This document shows, one piece after another, positions 2,726 through 8,750 of a DNA stretch of 23,803 nucleotides. Origin of the DNA: a virus; IMG/VR virus record IMGVR_UViG_3300010392_001009, positions 1 through 23,803 of that record, one strand, 5' to 3'. Within the stretch, counting starts at the first letter, position 1; each line of letters opens with the position of its first letter. The position numbers were made by a program, and so were the translations under genes. The notes under the pieces are model-generated. The model was not told where the DNA came from. It was given only the letters and a program-made list of their open reading frames with translations, and made no database searches.

Positions 2726-3793
2726 ATGACACTTACGAGAGATCAACTAGACGCTCATTCTGCCGAAATCGATTTGTGGTGGAAGAACCCTGACGCGAAG
2801 GTGTACTATCGTAACAAAGACGGTGACTGGAAGCATGCACAGTACCCGTCTTGGCTTTCGGGTGGCACTTACAGAGTCATCCTGCCCGAGTATCAAGATC
2901 TATGGCAAGCGTGGCTCGACGATGAGCTAGAGGATTATGCTTTAGGTTCGTGGACTCGATGGGATCGGAACGCAGCACCGCCTAAGTTCACCCGGCCTCC
3001 CAGCAACTATCGCCGCAAGCCGAAGCCTGAGCCGAAGCCACATCATCACCAGTGGTTGAGAGATCTAGCCAAAAAGAATCCAGACGCGAAGATCTATTAC
3101 TTTCGGAAAATTGACGATACGTGGCAAGAGGTTACGGATTGCTGTTTATGGGACCCCCACCTCGAATACCGAGTCATTCTGCCCGAGTATCGAGAGGCTT
3201 GGGAAGCCTACATCGACGGCGAGCTTGAGTATTGTGGTCTCCGAGGAACGTGGGGATCGTGGGACGGAGGCGGCTTAATCTTAGGGCCTCCAAATTTCAC
3301 AAGCCCAGCAGTTAAGTACCGCCGCAAGCCGAAGCCGGAGCCTCATGCCCACCAACGACTAATCGATATCGCGGAAAAGAATCCCGACGCGAAGATCTAC
3401 TACCTTCGGAAATCCGATGAAACGTGGGACGATGTTACGACTTGCTGTATCTGGGATGAAAGACACGAATACCAAGTCGTCCGGCCTGAGTACCAAGATG
3501 CTTGGGAAGCCTACATCGACGGCGAGCTTGAGATCAAGGCTGAGTGTGACGGTCTTTGGTTCGACTGGGCACTGACCTCCCATCCGGCTTTCAGCTTTGA
3601 CCCAAGCAACTATCGCCGCAAGCCGAAGCCAGAGACTATTGCCGTGCGGCTAGATTTGCTGCAAGAGGTTGTCGATCAGATGACTCTGGCTTTTGATTCC
3701 ATCAAAGTTTGCCGCGGTGACGAATGGCCGACTCTTGAGACCCTGAAAGAAGAAATCCACAAAGCAACCGAAAACCCCTCGGAGGAGAACTGA
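2726..3793 (+). CDS. Triple-repeat Trp/Tyr-rich domain protein, 355 aa
   Basis: Function unknown. ATG follows AAAGGAAGA. Three tandem copies of a roughly 90-100-residue domain occupy about residues 14-101, 108-204 and 208-303. Each runs NPDAK(I/V)YY, a Trp-containing strand, EY(R/Q)V(I/V), PEY, (A/L)W(E/Q)A, DGELE or DDELE, then W..W, F and YRRKPKPE. A helical tail of about 50 residues follows (LLQEVVDQMTLAF). Copies 2 and 3 carry an extra CC pair. They share a 33-bp identical DNA segment (3197-3229 and 3500-3532), pointing to recent duplication or gene conversion. A single copy sits in the gene at 1049. Proline/lysine linkers suggest beads on a string, probably for binding a ligand or partner. 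Confidence 0.85.
   Translation: MTLTRDQLDAHSAEIDLWWKNPDAKVYYRNKDGDWKHAQYPSWLSGGTYRVILPEYQDLWQAWLDDELEDYALGSWTRWDRNAAPPKFTRPPSNYRRKPKPEPKPHHHQWLRDLAKKNPDAKIYYFRKIDDTWQEVTDCCLWDPHLEYRVILPEYREAWEAYIDGELEYCGLRGTWGSWDGGGLILGPPNFTSPAVKYRRKPKPEPHAHQRLIDIAEKNPDAKIYYLRKSDETWDDVTTCCIWDERHEYQVVRPEYQDAWEAYIDGELEIKAECDGLWFDWALTSHPAFSFDPSNYRRKPKPETIAVRLDLLQEVVDQMTLAFDSIKVCRGDEWPTLETLKEEIHKATENPSEEN
3197..3532 (+). repeat. Direct DNA repeat within the triple-repeat gene
   Basis: A 33-bp identical segment, starting GCTTGGGAAGCC and ending GAGCTTGAG, occurs at 3197-3229 and 3500-3532. It encodes the AWEAYIDGELE core of domain copies 2 and 3. Identity at the base level exceeds what protein conservation needs. 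Confidence 0.75.
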
Positions 3794-4164: not shown

Positions 4165-4213
4165 CGTCGAATTTGGTGAAATTATTTTTCCAAAAACATT
4201 GACGTTTTTAACT

Positions 4214-4291
4214 ATTTTGGACAAAATTACTCATTTCGGCAAAATAAATGTTCTTTTTGGGGTGTCTCATGACGCTATACTTATAGAGGGG
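4214..4291 (+). promoter_or_regulatory. Promoter-like element, copy C
   Basis: It carries the same three blocks as copy A at the same offsets: palindrome ATTTTGGACAAAAT (4214-4227), AAAATAAATGTTCTTTTTG (4241-4259) and CTCATGACGCTATACTTATA plus GAGGGG (4266-4291). The DNA between blocks differs from copy A, so the blocks are conserved by selection and not only by recent copying. It precedes the long gene block starting at 4348. Confidence 0.6.
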
Positions 4292-4347
4292 TATGTTTTT
4301 ACAGAACAAACCCTACCCCAAAACAGAACAAAAATTATCACCGAAAG

Positions 4348-4934: not shown

Positions 4935-5876
4935 ATGAGCAGTTATGATGTAACCTTGCCACCTGACCTCCTAGTTGGTGGTCTTTCTGTGCAGCTTGGT
5001 GCTACACCTTGGACTCTCCCACCATCGGTCATGAAGCCGATCTGGGATCGAGGCATTACAGGTGCAGGCACCCTTGGGGCTGTGATCGACACTGGATACG
5101 AGGACCACCGAGTTCTCCCTAAAGCTGTCGACTATCTAAATTTCACTAACGAATCCTCTCGCCTACGCAACTCCCACGGTATACATTGTGCGAGTTCGAT
5201 GCTTGGTAGAGAAGGGATTGGAGCGGCTCCTCGTGCTAACTTATTGGCGATTAAGGTATTGGCTGGAACAGGTGGTTCTGGCTCTAGCGATTGGATTGCA
5301 AAGGGATTCCGGGCTGCGGCAGATGCTGGTGCTGATGTCGTTAGTGCTTCTTTAGGCGGTGGATCTCCCTACATGCCAACCAAAGACGCCTTGGCGTACT
5401 GCATCTCTAAAGGATGTTTACCTGTAGCGGCGGCTGGCAACTCTGGGTTTAATGGCCGAAACAACACGATCGGATACCCGGCCAAGTTCGACCAGAACGT
5501 GTTGGCTATCGGTGCCACGCAAGGCCCGTATGACAACCAGCGTATTGCTTCTTTCTCCTCTGGCGGTCGTGAGATCGATTTTGCTGTTGGCGGACACCAG
5601 ATCCTCGGAGCCTTAGCAGGCAACCAGATGGGGATTATGTCTGGCACCTCGATGTCGACGCCACTGTTCAGTGGGTTCGTGCTGTTGGCTATCGAAGTTC
5701 TTCGACTAGCTGGACGTCCTAGACCTACCACCTATCAAGGTTGGAAGGACATCTTCAAGAACATTGCTCGCGACTCAGGTCAACCCGGCTTCGACCAGTC
5801 GTTTGGGAACGGAATTATCTATCCAACAGATATTGCAAAGCTGTTGACCAATGCGTTAGATGCTTGGGGCTTATAA
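4935..5876 (+). CDS. Subtilisin-family serine protease (S8)
   Basis: This is a serine endopeptidase with the full subtilase signature: Asp52 in GAVIDTG, His81 in NSHGIH, oxyanion Asn169 in AAAGNSG, and Ser239 in SGTSMSTP. At 313 residues it is close to a bare catalytic domain. No signal peptide and no usual inhibitory propeptide are visible, so it resembles intracellular subtilisins or a virion/cytoplasmic enzyme. ATG follows GGAGGT. Its stop overlaps the next start (TAATG) and it is coupled to an HExxH protein. Possible roles are processing of host or virion proteins, or breakdown of the protein-rich planctomycete envelope. The family call is firm; the role is inference. Confidence 0.92.
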   Translation: MSSYDVTLPPDLLVGGLSVQLGATPWTLPPSVMKPIWDRGITGAGTLGAVIDTGYEDHRVLPKAVDYLNFTNESSRLRNSHGIHCASSMLGREGIGAAPRANLLAIKVLAGTGGSGSSDWIAKGFRAAADAGADVVSASLGGGSPYMPTKDALAYCISKGCLPVAAAGNSGFNGRNNTIGYPAKFDQNVLAIGATQGPYDNQRIASFSSGGREIDFAVGGHQILGALAGNQMGIMSGTSMSTPLFSGFVLLAIEVLRLAGRPRPTTYQGWKDIFKNIARDSGQPGFDQSFGNGIIYPTDIAKLLTNALDAWGL

Positions 5877-7205: not shown

Positions 7206-7229
7206 CAAGGTGATTGTGTAGGACTCAAC

Positions 7230-7313
7230 CGAGGTGATTGGGCGTGGAAGCCCCGCAACTCGCGTAGAGGAGGACCATAGACCCCCTCGGTAGGTTCGAT
7301 TCCTCCCACCTCG
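7230..7313 (+). tRNA. tRNA-like element (atypical or degenerate tRNA)
   Basis: A perfect 7-bp acceptor-like stem, CGAGGTG (7230-7236) with CACCTCG (7307-7313), encloses a canonical T arm: GTAGG, loop TTCGATT, CCTCC, with one mismatch. GGG/CCC (7240-7242/7251-7253) with GG in its loop fits a D arm. The middle is not standard: CGC/GCG and a longer GAGG.GG/CC.CCCTC hairpin (7267-7288) whose loop contains CAT, but base 33 is not T. At 84 nt it is class II sized. No CCA is encoded. A related 5' segment (AGGTGATTG) occurs 24 bases earlier. It could be a real odd tRNA, a decayed tRNA or a tRNA mimic; the anticodon is uncertain. Confidence 0.42.
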
Positions 7314-7360
7314 TTTTATTCATCGAGTATCCCACCAACGATAGTCTGATGGAGAAAAAG

Positions 7361-7759
7361 ATGAAGCAGTTACTCTCAATGATCATCATGGTCGTTGCCT
7401 CGCTAAGCCCTAACATGGCTACCGCACAAGACCGGACATATGACGATGCGTACAATATCGCCAAGAAGCTAGATAAGAAAGTCATGGTCATCTTCTCGAA
7501 AAAAGGATGACCCCCATGCTCTTTACTTGAGCGTGCTCTCAAGACTGATCAGCAGGTGATTTTTGTGTCTAGAAATTACGAAATTGTAATCCACAAATAT
7601 ACAAGCAAAAAAGATATCCCGCCCAAACTAAGGCAAGTGTTTGACGATATGAAGGTCGACCGCTTTCCCAGAACGATATCAATCGATCCGAAGACTCGCG
7701 AATACCGTCCCGGTGTTATCGGGTTTGGCCGATCTGATTGGTTGCAGTACTTTGATTAA
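7361..7759 (+). CDS. Secreted thioredoxin-like protein with in-frame UGA (candidate selenoprotein)
   Basis: ATG 7361 has GGAG six bases upstream and gives a signal peptide (KQLLSMIIMVVASLS, ending ATAQ). The frame then meets TGA at codon 50 and continues open to TAA 7757-7759, giving 132 codons. Residues 42-53 read MVIFSKKG, then UGA, then PPC, so UGA sits exactly at the first Cys of a CPPC thioredoxin active site. Downstream, RFPRTISID has the cis-proline (P103) of the thioredoxin fold, so both sides of the UGA belong to one domain. A hairpin at 7526-7543 fits a bacterial SECIS. TGA serves as a normal stop in many genes here, so genome-wide recoding is excluded. The alternative is a point-mutated pseudogene (TGC or TGT to TGA). 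The probable role is thiol redox chemistry outside the cytoplasm, beside a secreted protease. Confidence 0.75.
7526..7543 (+). promoter_or_regulatory. Candidate bacterial SECIS hairpin
   Basis: CTTGAG (7526-7531) pairs perfectly with CTCAAG (7538-7543). The six-base loop CGTGCT has G at its second position followed by T. The loop begins 21 bases after the UGA (7508-7510). Bacterial SECIS elements lie in the coding sequence about 16-37 bases past UGA and need a G in the first loop positions. The fit is good but a short hairpin can arise by chance. Confidence 0.5.
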
Positions 7760-7770
7760 GGCGGTGATAC

Positions 7771-8460
7771 ATGCGATATCTACTCACACTAGTGTTGTTA
7801 TTTGGGTTAACTGCATCTGAATGCTATGCCCAACTTGGTTCCTCAACGAACCTATTCACGTTTAAAAAGTTTGAAGACAATCCAATTCAGAAGTCCCTTG
7901 TTCGTATTCATGCGAACGGGGAACAGGGTGTAGGTCTAGGATCAGGTGCCCTCATCGGGAAAGACTTGATACTCACTGCATACCACGTGGTTCGGGGTGC
8001 TACCACCATCGATGTTTTGGTGCCGCACAAAGCGTTCCGATTCAAAGACGCGAAGCTTTTATACTTCGACGTCGGTAAAGATCTAGCCGTGCTCAAGGCC
8101 GCTCTCCCGAAAGCGGTTAAGCCGCTTACAGTTTCGGAGACAGTGCCAAAGCAAGGCGAAACTATTCAATTTCTAGGGTTCGCCGGGGGACAGCTCCCTC
8201 GCCATTTCGATTGCAAGGTACTCGATGTTGACAACTTAGCAAAGCAGTTGCTGTTAGATTCCCAAGTCATTCAGGGGGATTCTGGCGGAATGATGCTTAA
8301 TTCAAAAGGGGAGATTGTCGGGTGTATTCAGAAAGGAATGGTGTCGATAACACGTATCAGTCACTTGGAAGGCGATACGCTGTACAACCCACTCTTACTG
8401 GCACTTACTACCGGATGTGATTGTAGGACAATATCCGACTTTCTGAAAGCAAATGAATGA
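7771..8460 (+). CDS. Secreted trypsin-like serine protease (S1 family)
   Basis: The signal peptide covers residues 1-20 (RYLLTLVLLFGLTAS, cut after CYA). The catalytic triad is visible: His72 in LTAYHVV, Asp104 in GKDLAVL, Ser171 in GDSGG. GSGALIGKDLILTA matches the strand before the histidine in chymotrypsin-fold enzymes. At 229 residues it is a single protease domain with no PDZ domain, unlike DegP/HtrA. Four cysteines, including CDC near the end (about 216-218), could form disulfides, and a secreted thioredoxin-like gene sits immediately upstream. ATG follows GGCGGTGA. Its stop overlaps the next start (ATGA). It probably acts in the periplasm or envelope of the host. Confidence 0.92.
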   Translation: MRYLLTLVLLFGLTASECYAQLGSSTNLFTFKKFEDNPIQKSLVRIHANGEQGVGLGSGALIGKDLILTAYHVVRGATTIDVLVPHKAFRFKDAKLLYFDVGKDLAVLKAALPKAVKPLTVSETVPKQGETIQFLGFAGGQLPRHFDCKVLDVDNLAKQLLLDSQVIQGDSGGMMLNSKGEIVGCIQKGMVSITRISHLEGDTLYNPLLLALTTGCDCRTISDFLKANE

Positions 8461-8750
8461 GCAACGAACACGATCAAGACCACTACAGAGACGACGACCG
8501 AAACTACAACAACGGTCAACCCGCTTTCGTAACTTGGATCGGGGACGCGATAAAGAACTATGGCTTCCCGATCCTAGTGGCCTGCTATCTGCTCTGGCAG
8601 CAGCAGTTGACCACAAAGTTTCTTCAAGACAAAGTGGAGATGCATGACGTCGAGGTGATTAAGGCCTTGAAAGACAACACCCGCGTAATCGAGAAAAACA
8701 CCGAAGTTATCCAAATGATCCTCGGTGCGAGAACGATGGATCTGGACTAA
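8457..8750 (+). CDS. Holin-like small membrane protein, 97 aa
   Basis: A hydrophilic N-terminus (residues 1-23) is followed by one membrane helix (about 24-47, with NYGFPILVACYLLW) and then a coiled-coil-like stretch (VIKALKDNTRVIEKNTEVI). The GFPI..A.YLL segment recalls YvrJ and BhlA/UviB-type small holin-like proteins. The start overlaps the S1 protease stop and the gene lies just before the terminase, a common place for lysis genes. No endolysin is seen beside it. Holin function is inferred from shape and place only. Confidence 0.6.
   Translation: MSNEHDQDHYRDDDRNYNNGQPAFVTWIGDAIKNYGFPILVACYLLWQQQLTTKFLQDKVEMHDVEVIKALKDNTRVIEKNTEVIQMILGARTMDLD

Follow-up and report, generated by a model that had tools for sequence, protein, structure and literature searches.

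The window analysed here, 23,803 bases long, is a whole IMG/VR record and carries genes for TerL, portal, a fused protease/capsid protein, tail and tape-measure proteins. Its plus strand encodes a thioredoxin-like protein whose frame contains a UGA at the catalytic site; a gene for an exported protein lies upstream, and genes for a protease and a small membrane protein follow. The features of this region are given below.

7351-7354, plus strand: good Shine-Dalgarno sequence GGAG, 6 nt before the ATG and indicating that start, read from the sequence
7361-7759, plus strand: candidate selenoprotein gene for an exported thioredoxin-like protein of 132 residues with UGA as selenocysteine (Sec), from translation, the Thioredoxin_2 match and codon usage
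7361-7429, plus strand: predicted signal peptide MKQLLSMIIMVVASLSPNMATAQ with an AxA-type cleavage site, read from the sequence
7508-7510, plus strand: UGA, candidate Sec codon at the first catalytic position of CxxC, by homology
7508-7519, plus strand: UPPC redox motif
7526-7543, plus strand: candidate bacterial SECIS hairpin CUUGAG-CGUGCU-CUCAAG, at the homologous place of the host and viral UGPC hairpins
7649-7690, plus strand: cis-proline region MKVDRFPRTISIDP of the predicted thioredoxin fold, identified by alignment with VRGYPTVIFTDP in host proteins
7771-8460, plus strand: exported trypsin-like protease (S1/HtrA type), 11 nt downstream of the thioredoxin gene (Trypsin_2, E 3.6e-15)
8457-8750, plus strand: small membrane protein, weakly holin-like (phrog_4898 holin, E 0.0027; Pfam YvrJ, E 8e-6, below cut-off)

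The frame at 7361-7759 (plus strand) translates as MKQLLSMIIMVVASLSPNMATAQ, DRTYDDAYNIAKKLDKKVMVIFSKKG, a stop, PPCSLLERALK...RFPRTISID...YFD and the final stop, a TAA. Its single in-frame stop is the TGA at 7508-7510, codon 50, in the context FSKKG-UGA-PPC. Residues 34-120 match the Pfam domain Thioredoxin_2 (PF13098) across the TGA (E 6e-8; 33.4 bits against a curated cut-off of 27), and the nearest PDB sequences in a phmmer search are thioredoxin-like, with Cys where the phage gene has TGA. Codon usage both before and after the TGA prefers the frame of the gene over the five others. In the preliminary description, one frame runs from a signal peptide through the TGA of codon 50 and PPC into a thioredoxin-like domain, with the TGA at the catalytic first Cys of CPPC and RFPRTISID as the cis-proline motif. 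Translation and the Thioredoxin_2 match confirm the arrangement, the PDB sequences and members of the wider family have Cys at the position in question, and the cis-proline region aligns with that of host proteins. A single-sequence AlphaFold2 model of the protein was poor (pLDDT 54.8) and gave no significant fold match, and protein searches of IMG/VR, INPHARED and PLSDB found no relatives of the UPPC protein.

TGA terminates 12 of the 30 listed ORFs on the contig, so we reject a general reassignment of UGA in this phage. A fresh pseudogene, in which a true nonsense mutation cut the thioredoxin short after residue 49, would agree with the meaning of TGA in the standard code and with the ease with which phage accessory genes decay. 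The remainder of the gene speaks against such decay: the 132 codons contain no other disabling change, frame and codon usage are intact past the TGA, and the stop both falls exactly on the Sec/Cys residue and is UGA. We consider a pseudogene very unlikely. Still harder to credit is a pair of products, a 49-residue exported peptide and a 67-residue restart protein from the GTG at 7556. An ORF with that start does exist (7556-7759), but it begins 45 nt after the stop, its product would have neither UPPC nor the first strand of the fold, and the Thioredoxin_2 match spans the TGA.

A single close phage was identified (L001; TerL 82% and MCP 81% identical), but its sequence starts inside TerL and thus gives no information on the thioredoxin gene. 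Since we found no close relative of the phage that covers this gene, the test for Sec was made on the protein family. Relatives of TerL with 37-40% identity, in 80 genome loci, are mostly prophages of Planctomycetota and in some cases come from Lentisphaerota and Verrucomicrobiota, with a few in oddly labelled metagenome-assembled genomes. The host is thus probably a planctomycete or a close relative. A tRNA-Sec above the Rfam cut-off is present in 214 of 294 Planctomycetota genomes, and no usable Sec machinery was recognised on the phage contig.

We scanned 392 Planctomycetota genomes for the DNA pattern F-xxx-G-UGA-P-P-C and obtained 26 matches, compared with about 6 for the reversed pattern that served as control. 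Of these 26, twelve proved to be genuine thioredoxin-like ORFs with an uninterrupted frame on either side of the UGA, and many of the twelve have what looks like a signal peptide. A profile (A4) made from nine of the twelve and the phage protein was then run on 294 Planctomycetota genomes. Among the best 150 matches listed, 72 have exactly one stop, which is always TGA and never TAA or TAG, and 78 are stop-free. All 24 TGA members that were read out have the TGA at the first position of UxxC (UPPC, UGPC, UKHC or UGAC). The preliminary description had proposed a search for homologues with Cys or TGA at codon 50, and at the level of the family both kinds are thus present in Planctomycetota. Against a profile of 12 host UPPC proteins built without it, the phage protein scores 38 bits, a value that owes part to the motif itself because UPPC was the criterion by which these proteins were first gathered. 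The phage and host proteins are only 15-29% identical over the domain. The Planctomycetota loci (L178-L204) form a large group of UxxC thioredoxin-like genes, several of which can occur in one genome (for example, G171), and most likely these genes have been truncated or missed in annotation.

A strong tRNA-Sec match is found in 36 of 41 genomes with TGA members, versus 27 of 54 genomes for which only stop-free members were listed (Fisher p 1.5e-4). Of the five TGA-member genomes without such a match, the three tested for SelA (G156, G297 and G090) all have it, so incomplete assembly likely explains the missing tRNA-Sec there. All 11 UPPC genomes tested have SelA above cut-off, and 10 of them SelB as well; in the eleventh, a SelB-like frame is cut at a contig end. 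The host tRNA-Sec genes look canonical. The preliminary description had asked for a check of the host for Sec machinery; the result given here is for UPPC-bearing genomes of the probable host phylum, the host of this particular phage being a probable assignment.

A second line of evidence comes from the RNA that follows the UGA. The candidate SECIS of the phage has a 6-bp stem and a 6-nt loop with G and U at loop positions 2-3, and the loop starts at +21 nt from the UGA. A SECIS-type hairpin with a stem of at least 6 bp stands right after the UGA in 21 of the 24 TGA members, and in most host hairpins a loop of GGU/AGGU/GUCA type lies 23-25 nt from the UGA. The phage hairpin occupies the same codons as those of the hosts (LER-AL versus LER-GAF), with stems in different registers between family subgroups. 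It agrees, MFE included, with the published bacterial SECIS model (PMC13188914), which has a loop of 3-9 nt, a stem of 4-16 bp, G in the first two loop positions, a distance of 16-37 nt from the UGA and an MFE of at most -7.5 kcal/mol. Agreement with such a model proves little, since 18% of all TGAs in the window pass its loose form (a stem of 6 bp or longer, with the loop 16-37 nt from the UGA). Under tighter limits (+21 to +24 and loop type), set with the family pattern already in view, hairpins with a G-G/U loop follow 2.2% of the TGAs in the window and 1.4% of those in related loci, and a comparable hairpin arises in 4% of synonymous randomisations. The chance of finding a SECIS-type hairpin at the equivalent place in the phage gene is 2-6%. 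In short folds, an alternative 7-bp hairpin without the loop G competes with the candidate. The Rfam SECIS_1 model had no match in the window, a search that was uninformative because control genomes gave none either.

These comparisons also bear on a sequencing or assembly error or a population variant, in which the true codon would be TGC or TGT and the gene would encode an ordinary CPPC thioredoxin. The gene is known from a single metagenomic contig, either Cys codon is one substitution away from TGA, and members of the family without a stop are about as frequent as those with TGA. Yet only 1 of the 54 single-base changes able to introduce a stop into this ORF falls on codon 50, the SECIS-type hairpin lies at the right place (2-6% by chance), and the probable host phylum commonly has UGA at the redox residue. 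We judge an error or variant unlikely, if somewhat less so than a pseudogene, and even taken together the two seem improbable.

A tRNA-like cloverleaf at 7229-7314 (plus strand), 46 nt upstream of the thioredoxin gene, raises a further alternative. It has an acceptor stem (CGAGGTG/CACCTCG), a perfect T-loop GGTTCGATTCC and a long variable arm, and its best Rfam match is tRNA-Sec (RF01852), at 21.3 bits. We reject it as a phage tRNA-Sec on the basis of this score, which is below the threshold of 47 bits, and of its lack of an anticodon arm: 13 nt stand in place of the 17-nt arm, and they contain no UCA. ARAGORN at default settings reports no tRNA there, and none of the 294 genomes has a host tRNA with the same 3' half. 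The element is probably a tRNA relic or a tRNA mimic. Its position and its resemblance to tRNA-Sec would favour readthrough of the UGA with an ordinary amino acid, inserted by a near-cognate tRNA or by a suppressor derived from this element. Against this stand the missing anticodon arm and the ARAGORN result, the canonical look of the host tRNA-Sec genes and the fact that an ordinary residue would remove the catalytic Cys. Readthrough of this kind is thus a slight prospect, between a pseudogene and the two-product reading in probability.

Taken together, the locus very probably holds a functional selenoprotein gene of a tailed phage that probably infects a planctomycete, its UGA being read as Sec in an exported thioredoxin-like product. 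We favour Sec because, in the probable hosts, related proteins have UGA at this very residue together with a SECIS signal. The reading of UGA as Sec, already put forward in the preliminary description, is thereby supported by the TGA/Cys pattern of the family, by SelA and SelB in UPPC genomes and by the hairpins after the UGA. During infection, SelA, SelB, SelC and SelD of the host would read the UGA at 7508-7510 as selenocysteine, with the hairpin at 7526-7543 guiding insertion, and the signal peptide would export the product. Outside the cytoplasm, a Sec-Pro-Pro-Cys active site would presumably let this thioredoxin-like protein reduce or isomerise disulfides, with Sec as a more reactive attacking residue than Cys.

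The genes downstream suggest, at the level of a guess, what the substrate might be. In one description (PMC2754498), the planctomycete wall is a disulfide-bonded protein sacculus, although some planctomycetes have peptidoglycan (PMC5814848). The protease and holin-like neighbours suggest a role of the thioredoxin against the partly proteinaceous, disulfide-linked wall of the host. The exported Sec-thioredoxin might, together with the adjacent exported protease and the holin-like protein, loosen or remodel a disulfide-linked host envelope. Extracytoplasmic folding of phage tail or envelope proteins and protection from oxidants are alternative roles. The neighbour genes had no recognisable relatives in 89 phage and prophage loci. 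Elsewhere in the window, the phage encodes at 4935-5876 a serine protease of the subtilase family (Peptidase_S8, E 3.5e-34) that has no obvious signal peptide.

We also asked about Sec thioredoxins on other viral contigs. The F-xxx-G-UGA-PPC pattern matched 40 contigs in IMG/VR, none of which encodes a thioredoxin, so that these 40 double as a chance control. The pattern W-UGA-GPC matched 65 IMG/VR contigs, and together with G-UGA-GPC a total of 107 matches were examined. A thioredoxin ORF with a single UGA (UGPC; L213-L273) was identified on 31 IMG/VR contigs, corresponding to 25 distinct proteins, and many of these genes have a near-identical hairpin, ttgagcAGGTgctcaa, at +22 from the UGA. 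In INPHARED, no relative of the set reaches 60% identity. The two contigs whose gene content was examined (L234 and L263) carry genes for SSB, a UvsX-like recombinase and a DnaB-like helicase and look like T4-like phages, a lineage other than that of the window phage. The viral UGPC proteins are, like the window gene, candidate Sec thioredoxins on phage contigs, with a TTGAG/CTCAA stem at the same codons; they differ in that they mostly lack a signal peptide and have WUGPC instead of GUPPC. They may represent a widespread phage selenoprotein family.

One contig of 115.9 kb (L256/L318) encodes an apparently exported UGPC thioredoxin about 1.4 kb from an exported trypsin-like protease (protease at 5133-5810 on the minus strand; thioredoxin UGA at 7294 on the plus strand). 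This protease is related to that of the window (31% identity, E 1e-9). Because the two genes lie on opposite strands, the co-occurrence of thioredoxin and trypsin-like protease, with n = 2, is only a hint. A broader proposal would combine recurrent phage selenoproteins with a module for lysis or envelope attack, in which a Sec-thioredoxin reduces wall disulfides and a trypsin-like protease, perhaps with the subtilase at 4935-5876, opens the wall alongside the holin-like protein. We regard this combination as speculative and rather doubtful.

Thioredoxin-like UxxC selenoproteins are known from bacteria and from the Sargasso Sea and GOS surveys (PMC1088965; PMC2398784; list in PMC13188914), as the preliminary description had noted for bacteria and marine metagenomes. 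They combine a thioredoxin fold with Sec as the leading residue of CxxC, have Cys homologues and carry a SECIS right after the UGA, features that the phage gene would share; the window gene differs in its location on a phage genome, and a word search found phages unmentioned in the 2005 survey and the 2026 review. The exported Planctomycetota UPPC/UGPC Thioredoxin_2 proteins identified here (for example, L178, L179, L183, L184 and L185) share apparent signal peptides, FxxxGUPPC, the cis-Pro region and a SECIS at the same codons with the phage protein. Most of them have some 100 additional C-terminal residues, whereas the phage protein is a single short domain, 15-29% identical. The C-terminal thioredoxin-like part of TsoB (NCBIfam NF045694) weakly matches phage residues 6-116 (E 8.5e-5; 20.8 bits versus a cut-off of 805), but TsoB is a much larger rhodanese/DsbD-like fusion and not of the same family. 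Among viruses of eukaryotes, the glutathione peroxidase of molluscum contagiosum is a selenoprotein that uses the host Sec machinery; selenoproteins of such viruses differ from the phage gene in having the SECIS in the 3' UTR and in enzyme family and host domain.

The protein itself thus appears to be a member of the known bacterial thioredoxin-like UxxC selenoproteins, and the apparent novelty lies in its carriage by a phage genome. Full-text literature searches, which do not reach many subscription papers and preprints, found no description of a bacteriophage-encoded selenoprotein. The expectation that an exported phage Sec thioredoxin would be new accordingly holds with respect to the literature searched, but it has to be qualified by the Sec thioredoxins that phage contigs of IMG/VR also appear to carry. 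If the reading is correct, phages use the host Sec machinery for enzymes of their own. The course of an infection could then depend on selenium status, and viral databases will contain such genes truncated at the UGA by gene callers. Our searches also brought out the large Planctomycetota UxxC group and the UGPC set on viral contigs, both of them directly testable.

Two further observations concern other parts of the window. A tandem domain (NPDAKIYY...W...EYRVILPEYQ...AWLDDELE...YRRKPKPE) occurs in one copy in the ORF at 1049-1501 and in three copies at 2726-3793, and no family was found for it. An A+T-rich repeat, AAATAAATGTTCTTTT...TCATGACGCTATACTTATAGA, partly preceded by TATTTTGGACAAAAT, lies in gene-poor stretches at 93-216, 962-1007 and 4176-4299 and looks like a repeated promoter.
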